A stretch of DNA of 64,000 bases from Bacilli bacterium. Its GTDB lineage: Bacteria; Bacillota_I; Bacilli_A; RF39; UBA660. The translations under genes were made by a program, and so were the position numbers. The notes beneath the pieces were generated by a model. That model saw nothing but the letters and a program-made list of their open reading frames with translations, was not told where the DNA came from and did not search any database. The stretch is from positions 1 through 64,000 of the forward strand of contig JAGAFD010000003.1 of the NCBI GenBank assembly GCA_017612805.1, read 5' to 3'. Shown here one piece after another: positions 49,679-63,462 of the stretch (the stretch's first letter is position 1; each line of letters begins with the position of its first letter).

Positions 49679-50854
49679 ATGAAGCAAAAATATCAAAATT
49701 TATTATGTATCATTGGTATTATGCTATTTGCTGCGATTCTACTAGAAGTCCGTTTTCAAATTTATAAACATCAAGGAATCGAAAATGATGAAAGTCTAGT
49801 TTTAGTTGATGAAAATTTATCAATTAATTATTTAGACGGTAATAAAATCAAAGGTACAGGAACTATTAAAGTTAATTTTTCTGTGACCAATGTTTCTGAT
49901 CATAATATTGATTTCTTTATTAGTTTAAATAATATTATGAATGATACCGAAGACTTAACTTTCTCAATTAAGAGTTCTAATAAAGGTTATGACAAAGATT
50001 ATGAACCAATCGTTGGTTCTGATCATGTAATTGGTAGTAATATTCCAATTAAACCAAACGAATCTATTCGTTATGATTTATTTATTAATAACGCTAAACA
50101 TTTTAAAGCCATTATTAATATTGGTTATGAAAAAGATTATGTTAATTTATTAAAAGATTTAATTATTGCTAGTAATAATATTAATCAAGATACGGATAAT
50201 GATGGTGACACTTATTATTTTAAAAACAATGTTAATAATAATTTTGTTTCAATTGATGATTTATTATTTAGAATTATTCGCGTTAATGGTGATGGAACCA
50301 TTAGAGTAATGATGGATCAAAATATTGGTAATCATGTATTCTTGAATAATACGGGTAAACCATATCTTGATTATAAATCATCTGATATTAATGAATACTT
50401 ACAAAGTTATTATCAAAATAATTTAGCAAAATATGATGCCTTATTCAGCATGGATAATTTCTGTATTGATACGGTAGTATTTAATTCTGTAGGGGATAAG
50501 ACATATTTTGAAAATTATTATCGTATCGATAATAATGAACCTAATTATAAGTGTAGTACAATATATCAAAGTAAGATTGGCTTACTTAATGGTGATGAAG
50601 CAATGTTTGCCGGATCAACAAAAAGTGATACTTCTTATCTAAAGAAAAAAGATGAAATATTCTATACGATGAGTTATGCATATACGAATAATGGTAATTT
50701 CCCAAGTATTGTGGTTGTTGATAATGGTAAGTTAAGTGATAAAACTTCCGATAATGAATTATCTGTATATCCAGTATTAAACTTAAGCAAGGATGTTTTA
50801 GCAATTGGTGGGGGAACATTTAATAATCCATACCAAATTATTTATCAAAAATAA
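49679..50854 (+). CDS. Hypothetical membrane-anchored surface protein
   Basis: 391 residues: N-terminal hydrophobic anchor (about 7-25), a beta-rich region (30-160), then a segment YYFKNNVNNNFVSIDDLLFR followed by IIRVNGDGTIRVM, and a C-terminal YPVLNLSKDVLAIGGGTFNN motif. I recall the latter combination from gut-bacterial surface proteins (DUF6273-like), but cannot verify. Convergent with gerE; own ribosome site (AGAAAGGG). Confidence 0.6.
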   Translation: MKQKYQNLLCIIGIMLFAAILLEVRFQIYKHQGIENDESLVLVDENLSINYLDGNKIKGTGTIKVNFSVTNVSDHNIDFFISLNNIMNDTEDLTFSIKSSNKGYDKDYEPIVGSDHVIGSNIPIKPNESIRYDLFINNAKHFKAIINIGYEKDYVNLLKDLIIASNNINQDTDNDGDTYYFKNNVNNNFVSIDDLLFRIIRVNGDGTIRVMMDQNIGNHVFLNNTGKPYLDYKSSDINEYLQSYYQNNLAKYDALFSMDNFCIDTVVFNSVGDKTYFENYYRIDNNEPNYKCSTIYQSKIGLLNGDEAMFAGSTKSDTSYLKKKDEIFYTMSYAYTNNGNFPSIVVVDNGKLSDKTSDNELSVYPVLNLSKDVLAIGGGTFNNPYQIIYQK

Positions 50855-50880
50855 AAGCATGATTGTAATCATGCTTTTTT
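50852..50880. terminator. Bidirectional terminator
   Basis: AAAAGCATGATT...AATCATGCTTTT with flanking A and T runs. It serves the surface protein gene and reverse gerE. Confidence 0.85.
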
Positions 50881-51082
50881 AAATGGATATTTCACCTAAT
50901 CTGATTAATTCAACAACGGCATTAGCTCTTCCTTTTACCCCAAGTTTTTGCATTACATTAGAAATATGATTACGTACCGTTTTTTCGCTAATTTTTAGTT
51001 CTAAACCAATTTCTTTAGTCGTTTTATTTTTAATTAACATATTAAATATTTCTGCTTCACGTTTTGATAAAATACTTTGCAC
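50879..51082 (-). CDS. gerE: Spore coat transcription regulator GerE
   Basis: 67-residue LuxR-type helix-turn-helix protein consisting only of the DNA-binding domain. LSKREAEIFNMLIKNKTTKE, then KISEKTVRNHISNVMQKLGV, then KGRANAVVELIRLGEISI, closely follow Bacillus GerE, which tunes late mother-cell (sigma-K) coat genes. GTG start with GAGAGG nine bases upstream. Reads in the same direction as spoIIIAH just upstream, but behind its own sigma-K-like promoter. Confidence 0.93.
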   Translation of the reverse strand: MQSILSKREAEIFNMLIKNKTTKEIGLELKISEKTVRNHISNVMQKLGVKGRANAVVELIRLGEISI

Positions 51083-51135: not shown

Positions 51136-51621
51136 CTATTTTTTAAATTTAACGGTAATGTATTTCTGCATTTCGTAGCGATTTTGTACTTCATTAATAA
51201 TCTTGTTAGCTAATTCTTTTGAATGTGTATCTGATGCAATGGTAATGTTTATTTTATCACCACTAATTTTAACATAACTATTTAAGTCAAATTTTTCTTT
51301 AATTAATTTTTCTAATTCCATTTCTTTACCTTTATTGATGTTTAATTCTTTTAATGTTTCATAAGCTTCATTTTTTTCAATTGTGGATTTGGTATTATCG
51401 TTTAAGGTTGCTTCTAATTCTTCCATGGTTTTTAATAAAGCTTCGTCATCACTAACACGGAGTGATACTAAATAACTATTTTCTACTGTATTGATGGTTG
51501 CACTATCTTTCATTACCGTCAAATCATCTAAGTTTTCTTTCTTCATTGATAAGTAATAAACACTTAATACTAAGATTAAACTAAACAACGTTATAAACCA
51601 CAAATTTTGTTTTTTTACCAT
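51136..51621 (-). CDS. spoIIIAH: Stage III sporulation protein AH
   Basis: 161 residues: MVKKQNLWFITLFSLILVLS (single membrane anchor) followed by VYYLSM, a charged coil, and the C-terminal YscJ/FliF-like ring domain ending SGDKINITIASDTHSKELAN. The pattern follows Bacillus SpoIIIAH, the mother-cell ring of the SpoIIIA-SpoIIQ feeding channel. Start at ATG 51621 with GGAGATG; the open frame upstream is promoter DNA. The rest of the spoIIIA operon is not adjacent, which is unusual. The linker after the anchor is much shorter than in Bacillus. Confidence 0.92.
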   Translation of the reverse strand: MVKKQNLWFITLFSLILVLSVYYLSMKKENLDDLTVMKDSATINTVENSYLVSLRVSDDEALLKTMEELEATLNDNTKSTIEKNEAYETLKELNINKGKEMELEKLIKEKFDLNSYVKISGDKINITIASDTHSKELANKIINEVQNRYEMQKYITVKFKK

Positions 51622-51743: not shown

Positions 51744-53783
51744 ATGAAAAAAGTGTTGCAAAATGATATCTATGATTGTGGTATTTGTTCATTAAAAGCG
51801 ATTCTTAATTATTATCATGGTGATGTTCCGCTAGAAGTACTACGTTATGATACATTTACGGATTGTGGTGGAACGGATATGTATCATCTTCTTAGTGCTG
51901 CTAGGAATTATGGCTTAGATGGTTATGGTAAGAAGGTTATGGTAGAAGAATTACACGATTTACCAATGCCTTTAATTTGTCATACTGTTATTAATAATAA
52001 TTATGAACACTTTCAAGTAATTGAAAGAATTGATAATAAACATGTTTATTTAATGGATCCGGCAAAAGGAAATGTTAAATTAAAAGTTGATGAGTTTAAA
52101 AAGATCTTTTCTGGCCATGTATTAGTTTTAACCCCCATTAGTCATTTATCAATTTATCAAAAGAGAAAATCATTAACTAAAATTATTATCGATTTAATTA
52201 TTAACGAAAAACGTTTGTTAATTAATCTTTCGATTATTACTGCAATTGAAACGCTATTAACGATTAGTTATGCTTATATTTTTAAAATTATGTTAAATGA
52301 AAATATTATTTTTACTAATCATAGTTTTATTAAAATAGCTTTAATCTTTTTAGGAATTATGTTATTTTTAATTATTTTCAATTTTTATAAAGATTATTAT
52401 CGTAGTTATTTAGGTAAGAACGTTGATGCCTTTATCAAAGATCTTTTTATAAAACATATTTTTTATCTCCCTTCTTATTCGATTAAGTCGCGTAATCCTG
52501 GCGAAATCTTAACCCGGTTAAATGAATTAAATAATTATAAAATGTTATTAACGGATTATGTCGTTAATCTAGCCCTTGATTTTATTACAATTTTTTTAAC
52601 CGGTAGTTTATTAATAATTATTAACCATTATTTATTTCTAATCTTAATTATTATGTTACTGATGTATTTATCAATTAGTTTATTAGTTAATAAGTATATT
52701 AAAAAAACAATTGATGATGTTTTAACCAAAGAGAGTACTTTTAGTACTAACTTGATTGAAAACATAACTAATCTCGACTCCCTAAAATATTTACATTTAG
52801 AAGCGAGTGCTTATCAAAAAAATGAAAAGATTAATACCGACATGTTATATGCTAATTTTAATTTTGAATTAGCATTACACCGGATTAATTTTATTAAAAA
52901 TATTATTCATGAACTAGGATTATTAATTATTAATCTTTTAGGTATTTATTTGATATATCATCATCGATTTACCTTTATTGATTTAATTACTTTTAATACC
53001 ATCTTAATCTATTTTAAAGAACCAATTAAAAACTATATCGATTTACTTCCTAAGATTTCTTACATTAAAAGTTCTTTTAATAAGTTAAGTGAGTTTATTC
53101 AAATTGAAGGTGAATCATTTACTAATCAGCACATTATCCTAGATAATGGTAATGTTGAGTTTAAGAATGTGTCCATTTCTTATGATGGTATTAACAATGT
53201 TTTAGAACATAAAAATATCATTATTCCTAAGAATCATAAAGTATTAATTAACGGTTCTAGCGGAACAGGAAAAAGTAGTTTATGTAAAGCACTATATCGC
53301 CTAAATGATAATTATGAAGGTAATATTTTAATTAATGGTAATAATATCAAAGATTTAGATTTAAATGTAATTCGGAGTAATATTGGTTATTTAGGTCAAA
53401 AAGAAGGATTATTTTCTGATACTATTTATAATAATATTGTCATGAATCGGGTTGTTGATGAAACGGAATTTTTAAGAATTGCTCATCTTTGTATGATCGA
53501 TGATATCTTAGAAAATAAACCCCTTCGTTATAATACTATGTTATATGAAGGTGGTAAAAACTTAAGTGGTGGGGAAAGGCAAAGAATTTTACTAGCGAGA
53601 ATCTTATTAAAGTATCCTGATATTTTAATATTAGATGAAGCACTATCTGAAGTTAATCCCACTTTAGAATTAACAATTCTAAATAATCTAAAATCTTATT
53701 TGAAAAATCGCACCCTTATTTATATTTCACATCGTACAATTAATAATTACTTTGATCAGGTGGTGGATATTAATGAAAGTTAA
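51744..53783 (+). CDS. Bacteriocin-processing ABC exporter with C39 peptidase domain
   Basis: 679 residues. The N-terminal C39 peptidase domain (1-130) has catalytic Cys12 (QNDIYDCG), His89 (EHFQVI) and Asp105 (MDPAKG). Six-helix membrane region about 150-430. ATPase domain with Walker A GSSGTGKSSL, signature LSGGERQR and Walker B ILILDEA. It cleaves leaders after Gly-Gly and exports the mature peptide, and two such peptides are encoded just downstream. Its end overlaps the next gene. Confidence 0.93.
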   Translation: MKKVLQNDIYDCGICSLKAILNYYHGDVPLEVLRYDTFTDCGGTDMYHLLSAARNYGLDGYGKKVMVEELHDLPMPLICHTVINNNYEHFQVIERIDNKHVYLMDPAKGNVKLKVDEFKKIFSGHVLVLTPISHLSIYQKRKSLTKIIIDLIINEKRLLINLSIITAIETLLTISYAYIFKIMLNENIIFTNHSFIKIALIFLGIMLFLIIFNFYKDYYRSYLGKNVDAFIKDLFIKHIFYLPSYSIKSRNPGEILTRLNELNNYKMLLTDYVVNLALDFITIFLTGSLLIIINHYLFLILIIMLLMYLSISLLVNKYIKKTIDDVLTKESTFSTNLIENITNLDSLKYLHLEASAYQKNEKINTDMLYANFNFELALHRINFIKNIIHELGLLIINLLGIYLIYHHRFTFIDLITFNTILIYFKEPIKNYIDLLPKISYIKSSFNKLSEFIQIEGESFTNQHIILDNGNVEFKNVSISYDGINNVLEHKNIIIPKNHKVLINGSSGTGKSSLCKALYRLNDNYEGNILINGNNIKDLDLNVIRSNIGYLGQKEGLFSDTIYNNIVMNRVVDETEFLRIAHLCMIDDILENKPLRYNTMLYEGGKNLSGGERQRILLARILLKYPDILILDEALSEVNPTLELTILNNLKSYLKNRTLIYISHRTINNYFDQVVDINES

Positions 53784-54096
53784 GATCCAAAGTATTTATC
53801 ACTTCCTTTTGCTTAAACCACCGCGTATAAGATATCTTATAATTTTGTTAATAATTTTTATGGCTCTCAATTTTTTTATTATTAAAAATCTCAATATCTA
53901 TGTAAAAAAAGATGTCTTAATAACGAATCAAGAATTTAATTTAGATGTAAATATTGATACCATCTATTACCAAGAACAACCGTTAATCATCGTTGATAAA
54001 AAGATAAATAAGGACTATGTAACTTATCGAATAGCTTCAAATTTAGATGGTTTGAGAACAGTTACTTATCAAACTAATTTACTTAAAAATATTTAG
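53773..54096 (+). CDS. Small single-pass protein of the bacteriocin locus (accessory or immunity)
   Basis: 107 residues: basic cytosolic start (about 1-25), one membrane helix (about 27-44) and a beta-rich exterior of about 60 residues. Start at ATG 53773 after AGGTGGTGG, overlapping the exporter gene by 11 bp. It could be a minimal HlyD/ComB-like export accessory protein, or the immunity protein, as no other candidate lies in the locus. Not recognised by sequence. Confidence 0.6.
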   Translation: MKVKIQSIYHFLLLKPPRIRYLIILLIIFMALNFFIIKNLNIYVKKDVLITNQEFNLDVNIDTIYYQEQPLIIVDKKINKDYVTYRIASNLDGLRTVTYQTNLLKNI

Positions 54097-54110
54097 AAAG
54101 GAATGTTTTA

Positions 54111-54254
54111 ATGAATCTAACAAATGAAGAACTAAAGCATGTTAATGGCGGTATCGCTAAATGGGGTATCGTTGGTTTAGTTAGTGCGGGTTTAATAGTT
54201 TTTGCCATTGGTTTTGCCGATGGCTTTACTAGAACATTAAAATGTAATAAGTAA
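54111..54254 (+). CDS. Double-glycine bacteriocin prepeptide 1
   Basis: 47 residues. Leader MNLTNEELKHVNGG (14 residues, LxxEELxxVxGG pattern) is followed by a 33-residue hydrophobic mature peptide IAKWGIVGLVSAGLIVFAIG and so on, ending in TLKCNK. It contains a GxxxG motif (GFADG). AAAGGA ribosome site. Too short for standard gene callers. Confidence 0.88.
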   Translation: MNLTNEELKHVNGGIAKWGIVGLVSAGLIVFAIGFADGFTRTLKCNK

Positions 54255-54400
54255 TGACTAAAGAAGAAATGTTAAACGTTAAAGGCGGTATTTCTGCTGC
54301 TTTAATTAGTGCTGTAATTCGTGGTGTTAGTGTTATTCTAAGCGCTGGTCAATTTGCTGGTAGTGCCATTAGAAGAATAACTAAAAAGAATTATTGCTAA
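54254..54400 (+). CDS. Double-glycine bacteriocin prepeptide 2
   Basis: 48 residues. Leader MTKEEMLNVKGG (12 residues) and a 36-residue mature part ISAALISAVIRGVSVILSAG and so on, with GxxxG (GQFAG) and a C-terminal Cys (KKNYC). Its ATG overlaps the stop of peptide 1 (TAATG), indicating equal translation, as expected for a two-peptide (class IIb) bacteriocin. Confidence 0.88.
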   Translation: MTKEEMLNVKGGISAALISAVIRGVSVILSAGQFAGSAIRRITKKNYC

Positions 54401-54403
54401 TTT

Positions 54404-54434
54404 AAAAAGGTATTGTTAAATACCTTTTTTAAAT
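54404..54434 (+). terminator. Terminator of the bacteriocin locus
   Basis: AAAAAGGTATT-GTTA-AATACCTTTTT followed by Ts. Confidence 0.88.
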
Positions 54435-59646: not shown

Positions 59647-59838
59647 ATGACAAAAGTTGAAGTAACTAACGGTAATATTGATGGTGCTTTAAAACGTTTT
59701 AAAGTAAAAGTTGCTCGTAGTGGTGTCCCTTCTGAATTAAAGAAAAGAAAGCATTATGAAAAACCTGGAGTAAGAAGAAGAGAAGCAAAAAAAGAAATGA
59801 TTCGTAATGCAAGACGTGCTGCTAGAAAGAATCGTTAA
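59647..59838 (+). CDS. rpsU: 30S ribosomal protein S21
   Basis: 63 residues, MTKVEVTNGNIDGALKRFK, then KKRKHYEKPGVRRREAKK and a basic tail. Start at ATG 59647 after GAAGGGAGGG. The usual follower yqeY is missing. Followed by a terminator and yqfC. Confidence 0.96.
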   Translation: MTKVEVTNGNIDGALKRFKVKVARSGVPSELKKRKHYEKPGVRRREAKKEMIRNARRAARKNR

Positions 59839-61140: not shown

Positions 61141-61755
61141 ATGTTTTTAGATACCATTCGTAATGTTTATGAAAATGCCTGGCCAATGTTAGCAATCTTT
61201 TTATCAATTATTGTTATTGTTCGTCTAGTGTATTTATTTACTAATCATAAAAGAATTGTAATTCATCAAGAAATATTAGACTTCTTATTTTTAGTATATA
61301 TATTAATTTTATTTGAATTATTAATATCAACTGAATCGGCTTCGCATGGAATAAATTTAGTACCATTTAAAGAGATTACTAGATATAAGTTTATGAGCGA
61401 TTTATTTATCTATAATGTTATTGGTAATATAATTTTATTTATTCCTTTTGGATTCTTTGTATCAAGATATTGTAAGTTAAAAAACTTTATATATATCTTC
61501 TTTATGTCAGGAATTATTAGTTTTATTATTGAACGTGTTCAATTACGTATTGGTAGATCATTTGATATTGATGATATTATTTTAAATGTTTTAGGTGGTT
61601 TAATTGGTTACTTTATTTATATTGGTTTAACTAAAGTAAAAAAACATTTACCAAAATTTTTAGACAATAATTTATTTTATGGTATAATAAGCGTTGTTAT
61701 TTTAATTTTAGTAAGTTATTTATTCTTTCATTTTATTGGATTAGGGTGGTTTTAA
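61141..61755 (+). CDS. VanZ-like membrane protein
   Basis: 204 residues with five to six hydrophobic segments and the VanZ signature: NLVPFKEI, NVIGNIILFIPFGFF, ERVQLRIGRSFDIDDIILNV and LGGLIGYF. VanZ proteins are linked to low-level teicoplanin resistance or to unknown envelope roles; the resistance role is not implied here. Starts 2 bp after yqfD; its stop overlaps ybeY (TAATG). It occupies the slot of phoH/yqfF. Confidence 0.88.
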   Translation: MFLDTIRNVYENAWPMLAIFLSIIVIVRLVYLFTNHKRIVIHQEILDFLFLVYILILFELLISTESASHGINLVPFKEITRYKFMSDLFIYNVIGNIILFIPFGFFVSRYCKLKNFIYIFFMSGIISFIIERVQLRIGRSFDIDDIILNVLGGLIGYFIYIGLTKVKKHLPKFLDNNLFYGIISVVILILVSYLFFHFIGLGWF

Positions 61756-62198
61756 TGGATAACTATGATATTGTAAATAACTATGGTTATGATAAAGATT
61801 ATAGTTATTTAAATGATGTTATTAAAAATACATTAACGCATGAACATGTTGATAATGCAGTATTTTCAATAATCTTTGTTGATGAAGCAGAGATTCAAAA
61901 AATTAATAAAGAATATCGTGGCATTGACCGTGTTACGGATGTTATCTCGTTTGCATTTGAAGATAATGAAGATATTGCTTACGAAGATTTTCGTGTTCTA
62001 GGTGATATTTATATATGTATCCCAAGAATGCAAGAACAAGCGGCATCATACGGACATAGCGAAAAAAGAGAATTAGCTTTCTTAACATGTCATGGACTAT
62101 TACATTTACTTGGTTATGATCATCAAACCAAAAAAGAAGAAGAAATAATGTTTGGATTACAGGAGTTGATTTTAAATGGCACAAATATCACGCGATGA
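61755..62198 (+). CDS. ybeY: Endoribonuclease YbeY
   Basis: 147 residues with the zinc signature CHGLLHLLGYDHQTKKEEE (three His) and the upstream RVTDVISFAFE strand. Acts in 16S rRNA 3' processing and ribosome quality control. Start at ATG 61755 overlapping the vanZ-like stop; a GTG nine bases earlier is less likely. Confidence 0.96.
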   Translation: MDNYDIVNNYGYDKDYSYLNDVIKNTLTHEHVDNAVFSIIFVDEAEIQKINKEYRGIDRVTDVISFAFEDNEDIAYEDFRVLGDIYICIPRMQEQAASYGHSEKRELAFLTCHGLLHLLGYDHQTKKEEEIMFGLQELILNGTNITR

Positions 62199-62580: not shown

Positions 62581-63462
62581 ATGCGTAGTGGATTTGTAAG
62601 TATTATTGGTCGACCTAATGTTGGTAAATCAACATTATTAAACCAAATTATTAATGAACATGTAGCGATTACTTCTAATAAAGCTGGAACAACTAGAAAT
62701 ATTATTGAAGGTATCTATAATGAAGAAGATATCCAAATTGTCTTTGTTGATACCCCAGGTATTCATAAACCAATTACGAAGTTGGGTAAAGTATTAAATA
62801 AACAAGCTTCCTCATTAACTAAAGATGTTGATGCAATTTTATTTGTAATTGATGCTTATGCAGGTTTAGGTACTGGTGATAAATATATTTTAGAAACTTT
62901 AAAAAGTAATGATATTCCCATTATTTTAGTTTTAAATAAAATTGATATGTTAAATGAAGCCACTTTATTACAAAGAATAAATGAATATAAAGATATTTAT
63001 CCATTTAGTGAAATAGTGCCAATAAGCGCTAAAACCAAAGATAATGTTGCTCATTTAATTGAAGTAGTTAAAGGCTATTTAAAAGATAATGTTAAATATT
63101 TTGATGATGGTTATTTTACCTCTTCATCTAAATATTTTATGGTTAGTGAGTATGTAAGAGAAAAATTGTTAGAAAGAACGGAAGAAGAAATTCCGCATAG
63201 TATTACTTGTCTAACGACTAAATTTGAAGAACAAAAAGATATTATTAATATCAATGTTGATATTATTGTTGATCGTGATAGTATTAAAAAAATTGTTATA
63301 GGTAAAAATGGTGAACGATTAAAAGAAGTAGGTATCTTATCAAGACGTGATATGGAAAAACTATTAGGTAAAAAAGTTTACTTAGAATTATATGTTAAAA
63401 CCATTAAAAACTGGCGTGATAAAGAAAGATACTTTAATGAACTAGGATTTAAAGATTTTTAA
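62581..63462 (+). CDS. era: Ribosome assembly GTPase Era
   Basis: 293 residues: P-loop GRPNVGKST (10-18), DTPGIHKP, NKID, SAKT, and a C-terminal KH domain with GKNGERLKEVGILSRRDMEK. Binds the 3' end of 16S rRNA. Nine bp after dgkA. The cdd gene found between them in Bacillus is missing. Confidence 0.97.
   Translation: MRSGFVSIIGRPNVGKSTLLNQIINEHVAITSNKAGTTRNIIEGIYNEEDIQIVFVDTPGIHKPITKLGKVLNKQASSLTKDVDAILFVIDAYAGLGTGDKYILETLKSNDIPIILVLNKIDMLNEATLLQRINEYKDIYPFSEIVPISAKTKDNVAHLIEVVKGYLKDNVKYFDDGYFTSSSKYFMVSEYVREKLLERTEEEIPHSITCLTTKFEEQKDIININVDIIVDRDSIKKIVIGKNGERLKEVGILSRRDMEKLLGKKVYLELYVKTIKNWRDKERYFNELGFKDF

Follow-up and report, generated by a model that had tools for sequence, protein, structure and literature searches.

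The four-gene peptide-export operon at positions 51744–54400 of the window (the whole 64,000-nucleotide stretch analysed here, from a genome of family UBA660 in order RF39) is a core, single-copy trait of its uncultured family. The best explanation, held at a probability of roughly 0.58, is that of a core secretion operon, passed on by vertical descent, whose products form a membrane-acting peptide pair with a standing function, rather than a strain-variable weapon. Locus annotation would call this core family trait a bacteriocin, and housekeeping peptides may be among the bacteriocins counted in gut genomes. Literature searches returned no description of the pepA/pepB locus. Each of the two peptide genes stands for a conserved family in which the cysteine is invariant, and both peptides are amenable to synthesis.

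Anatomy of the operon and its products

The four genes of the original prediction were confirmed in place, all on the forward strand. The features of the window on which the analysis draws are as follows.

51744–53783, + strand: C39-peptidase ABC exporter of 679 aa (C39, TMD and NBD by Pfam; catalytic C12, H89 and D105)
53773–54096, + strand: 107-aa single-pass protein (from ATG) in the accessory position; its family has the fold of a membrane fusion protein core, as seen in a 151-aa relative, and the window copy is weakly recognised
54111–54254, + strand: pepA precursor of 47 aa, with GG leader, GxxxG and Cys45
54254–54400, + strand: pepB precursor of 48 aa, with GG leader, GxxxG and Cys48
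54404–54430, + strand: terminator-like hairpin with T run at the operon end (−11.5 kcal/mol, z −4.3)
51136–51621, − strand: spoIIIAH-like gene, divergent neighbour (PF12685, 5.5e-14)
50879–51082, − strand: GerE/LuxR-type HTH protein, neighbour (PF00196, 3e-20)
59647–59838, + strand: rpsU (S21), a downstream neighbour
61746–62198, + strand: ybeY, with era a synteny anchor common to other families
62581–63462: era, the partner of ybeY in that anchor

The end of the exporter gene overlaps the start of the gene for the 107-aa protein, and the two peptide genes are coupled by the sequence TAATG, in which the pepA stop overlaps the pepB start, as first described. Given the hairpin and T run 3′ of pepB, the operon probably ends there; the hairpin contains only two G-C pairs and is missing from a consensus terminator scan. 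The next gene encodes undecaprenyl diphosphate synthase. At 5 to 9 kb downstream of the locus come rpsU, yqfD (the gene preceding ybeY), ybeY and era. On the other side, a 391-aa single-pass protein (49679–50854) is unmatched in Pfam and has nothing convincing in NCBIfam; a relative of it adjoins the locus in the sister species.

The exporter carries C39 (6.2e-32), ABC_membrane (5.2e-24) and ABC_tran (9.2e-26) domains in Pfam, placing the C39 triad, TMD and ABC domain on one chain. It shares domain order, triad and ABC motifs with C39-peptidase ABC exporters (TIGR01193; the Mbov_0121 family, NF045998), and scores under both curated cut-offs, at 336 of 524 bits and 323 of 500 bits, respectively. 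The triad originally recognised in the window copy is kept, together with Q6, in 93–98% of 60 aligned family exporters (95–98% for the three triad residues); the family's exporters form one group in the exporter tree. In C39 exporters generally, the C39 domain cuts the leader of the substrate and the ABC transporter exports it. By analogy, the C39 domain of the window exporter would cut the double-glycine leaders off pepA and pepB, and its ABC motor would carry the mature products out, with the 107-aa protein, in loci that have one, assisting as a miniature membrane-fusion-type adaptor.

Both precursors display the double-glycine leader, the GxxxG motif and the near-C-terminal cysteine for which they were initially singled out. 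The pepA leader is MNLTNEELKHVNGG (54111–54152), leaving a predicted mature part of 33 aa (54153–54251), and the pepB leader is MTKEEMLNVKGG (54254–54289), leaving one of 36 aa (54290–54397). GxxxG reads GFADG in pepA and GQFAG in pepB, and the cysteine is third from the C-terminal end in the former and the last residue in the latter. One mature peptide is strongly hydrophobic, the other cationic-amphipathic. Against NCBIfam TIGR03949, which describes class IIb peptides of the lactobin A/cerein 7B type with a cut-off of 21.5, pepA scores 35.6 bits (over) and pepB 19.7 (under).

The small protein had been offered as either an immunity protein or an export accessory, and the latter is the more likely. 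Members of its family begin with a short stretch in the cytoplasm, cross the membrane once as a TM helix and have an outer part rich in beta structure. When a structure model of the 151-aa relative (pLDDT 88.9) was compared with known structures, membrane fusion proteins took all of the 22 top rows (Z 6.7–9.0), among them BesA (9.0), Spr0693 (8.7), MacA, AcrA, MexA, EmrA and CusB; unrelated beta-barrels rank below them, and the Foldseek E-values for the same relative are not significant. The N-terminal TM helix and beta-barrel domain are common to this family and to membrane fusion proteins such as BesA, MacA and HlyD, whereas the lipoyl and hairpin domains of the latter are lacking from proteins of about 107–155 aa in total. 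From the model, the family is read as an adaptor that lacks both the lipoyl and the hairpin domain. Pfam returns no consistent family for it, and its profile finds one weak match only among PDB sequences. The window's own 107-aa protein gives a poor model (pLDDT 63.6) with no structural match, and shows marginal similarity (E 0.01) to the family of longer adaptors; its position and topology suggest that it, too, may be an adaptor.

Distribution and descent in the family

A survey of 193 family genomes from 148 genera, mostly draft assemblies, was carried out with profiles of pepA and pepB (alignments A1 and A2, in both of which the GG is invariant). It located pepB in 179 genomes and pepA in 178, with 137 genera represented for each peptide; among the 139 good genomes the counts are 132 and 131. 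Such breadth disposes of the concern that the peptides are chance frames. They occur mostly in one copy per genome and are kept even in family genomes of 0.4–0.6 Mb. The exporter, for its part, has a near-full-length match in most other family genera searched, and pepA-like or pepB-like genes adjoin it in 30 fetched loci. In the sampled rest of the class, the profile search found leader-like matches only and no full peptide.

Genomes that keep the exporter and lack the peptides had been named as an observation that would count against a two-peptide bacteriocin locus, and none with a complete exporter was found. Among 14 peptide-less family genomes, 10 are without a C39 domain, one has just a weak C39 match, to a protein of a different type, and in three the exporter is cut by a contig end; a complete exporter is seen in none of the 14. 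Peptides and exporter are thus gained and lost together.

Sixty wider neighbourhoods were fetched, and anatomy was counted over 61 loci. The order exporter, small protein, pepA, pepB is found in 41, while in 14 clear cases the exporter is followed directly by pepA, with no third peptide. In 25 loci (e.g., L094–L104) a leaderless one-TM peptide, which is not present in the window, overlaps the pepB stop and has a GxxxG-R segment like that of pepB; it could be an immunity protein or a third component. Core-gene neighbours recur, namely rpsU (33 loci), yqeY (26), gerE (18), spoIIIAH (17) and rsmD (11). Proteins with a pilin-like N-terminus, starting like KNGFxAxSxIYSFFLVF, recur near loci L003 and L019.

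The mature peptides are well conserved across these loci. All 60 mature pepA and all 61 mature pepB sequences contain GxxxG, compared with 49% and 22% of shuffled peptides, and every mature peptide has a cysteine near its C-terminus. Mean pairwise identity is 0.42 for mature pepA, 0.41 for mature pepB and 0.34 for the exporter. The leaders, at 0.46 and 0.45, are about as conserved as the mature parts, which counts against a standing function. Peptide distances track those of neighbouring core genes (r 0.72 for pepA and 0.60 for pepB with yqeY; 0.83 and 0.62 with rsmD), and dN is well below dS in five close pairs. Together, the conservation of the mature parts, distances that follow core genes and dN below dS make up the pattern expected of vertical descent under purifying selection.

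A probable standing function and its alternatives

One copy in nearly every lineage and conserved mature parts make it most likely that the pair serves a standing function, be it in the envelope, in contact or in constitutive antagonism. Outside the cell, mature pepA and pepB would pair in a membrane by their invariant GxxxG faces, and a disulfide between the C-terminal cysteines possibly links one to the other.

The nearest model for how such peptides might act on membranes is the class IIb bacteriocin, a class in which membership is not established here because an adjacent immunity gene is missing. The likeness to the lactobin A/cerein 7B and lactococcin G types is considerable: an adjacent, coupled pair of GG-leader peptide genes, GxxxG in both mature parts, a dedicated C39 exporter, an adaptor-like protein, and a pepA score over the NCBI class IIb cut-off. 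To this extent the original prediction of a class IIb bacteriocin stands, as an exported two-peptide architecture of class IIb type. A bacteriocin peculiar to this genome is not supported, the locus being a core one that the family carries in single copy. An ordinary class IIb bacteriocin could still have become fixed in the family, making pores in competitors of other lineages, with immunity encoded elsewhere, provided by the small proteins (the leaderless third peptide of 25 loci, with its pepB-like GxxxG-R, could be one such) or not needed at all. This alternative deserves serious consideration and is nonetheless unlikely. It sits poorly with a locus that is single-copy family-wide and vertically inherited, with mature parts that are conserved rather than diversified, and with a C-terminal cysteine that is invariant in both peptides and is not known as a class IIb trait. 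Nor is there an adjacent immunity candidate in the 14 loci made up of exporter and peptides only. If the 107-aa protein is an adaptor, the window has none either, as the operon holds no dedicated immunity gene besides this protein. The adaptor itself, reduced to TM helix and beta-barrel, is a further departure from the class.

C39 exporters also serve pheromones, as ComA does for ComC, and a conserved core trait might suit peptides exported for cell–cell signalling. Such a role for pepA and pepB is improbable: no histidine kinase stands beside the peptides in the window, no such cluster recurs in the 61 loci, and two membrane-seeking peptides have been kept across genera, whereas pheromones usually vary.

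Least probable is the sporulation-linked, cannibalism-like toxin suggested by the divergent spoIIIAH and gerE. In its favour, order RF39 is predicted to sporulate (PMC10868615) and 24 of 25 family genomes have retained Spo0A. A link to sporulation is nevertheless not supported: these two neighbours are near the exporter in only 17–18 of 61 loci; 11 of 12 peptide-less genomes tested still have Spo0A, with no co-loss of peptides and Spo0A seen; the peptides are kept in genome G137, where Spo0A was not found; and C39 exporters adjacent to ybeY are kept in the non-sporulating mycoplasmas.

C39 exporters at ybeY in other families

The standing-function reading acquires a wider setting from C39 exporters that precede ybeY in mycoplasmas and in spiroplasma-like and Erysipelotrichaceae-like genomes (labels based on the reading of TGA and on gene content), with or without a small protein between. 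In two further families, C39 proteins of about 370–413 aa (L242–L249) stand mostly directly before ybeY; in the one such protein checked, of about 400 aa, Pfam finds the C39 domain alone, with no ABC domain. The window may contain the form, with substrates encoded alongside, of an ancient export system passed on by vertical descent, with a C39 exporter at ybeY-era from Erysipelotrichaceae-like genomes to spiroplasmas and mycoplasmas and with each lineage having its own single-copy GG peptide at a fixed place. This proposal is tentative, its chances falling somewhat short of even. In the exporter tree, the depths are unresolved, the mycoplasma branches are long and the family group is placed beside exporters of the lactococcin type, so that a single inherited line of ybeY-linked and family exporters is neither proved nor denied.

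The mycoplasma exporters resemble that of the window in having a small TM protein directly after them, and differ in that the mycoplasma loci read here have no substrate gene in the exporter operon, whereas the window operon encodes its own substrates. The small mycoplasma protein belongs to the MAG1140 family (NF045999), likewise single-pass, for which the literature searched describes no function. NF045999 matches 15 of 32 members of the adaptor-family alignment (best 8.6e-8) and does not match the window's own 107-aa copy. When the adaptors of mycoplasmas and of the family were compared profile to profile, the TM region alone could be aligned; the link between them therefore rests on the NF045999 matches, gene order and one E-value of 3.5e-6.

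By neighbour order, the ybeY-linked exporters would include the orphan C39 exporter MMSYN1_0401 of JCVI-syn3A. MMSYN1_0401 is preceded by MMSYN1_0400, and no double-glycine peptide was known for it, import of lipoyl peptides having been proposed instead (PMC6609329). MMSYN1_0400 is the likely counterpart of YraA (PMC4993169). A DJ-1/PfpI-like gene precedes the exporter in three spiroplasma-family loci (L216, and two others by sequence), the position that MMSYN1_0400 has before MMSYN1_0401. If true, an ancient export system at ybeY-era would provide orphan C39 exporters in reduced genomes, MMSYN1_0401 among them, with an actual function and with candidate substrates. Which substrates leave the cell through the C39 exporters in mycoplasmas and in the minimal cell JCVI-syn3A thereby becomes a testable question.

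Single-copy proteins with GG leaders at other fixed places were encountered in several of these lineages. The spiroplasma-like family encodes examples of approximately 88–137 aa next to rplU, greA and rsmI (L183–L194; e.g., L183:1739–2131). The rplU-adjacent protein matches 51 of 60 genomes of this family, in which TGA encodes Trp, and these proteins, which carry a KIGNSxFxxD-like motif, are candidate substrates of the family's C39 exporter. In three mycoplasma genomes (L195–L197), GG-leader proteins of 79–97 aa ending in HYC[LVT] adjoin rpmE. Between valS and radC, 38 genomes of two families in the class encode a GG-leader peptide of 58–59 aa, examples of which are found at L198:1970–2149, L199:1151–1330 and L200:2082–2258.
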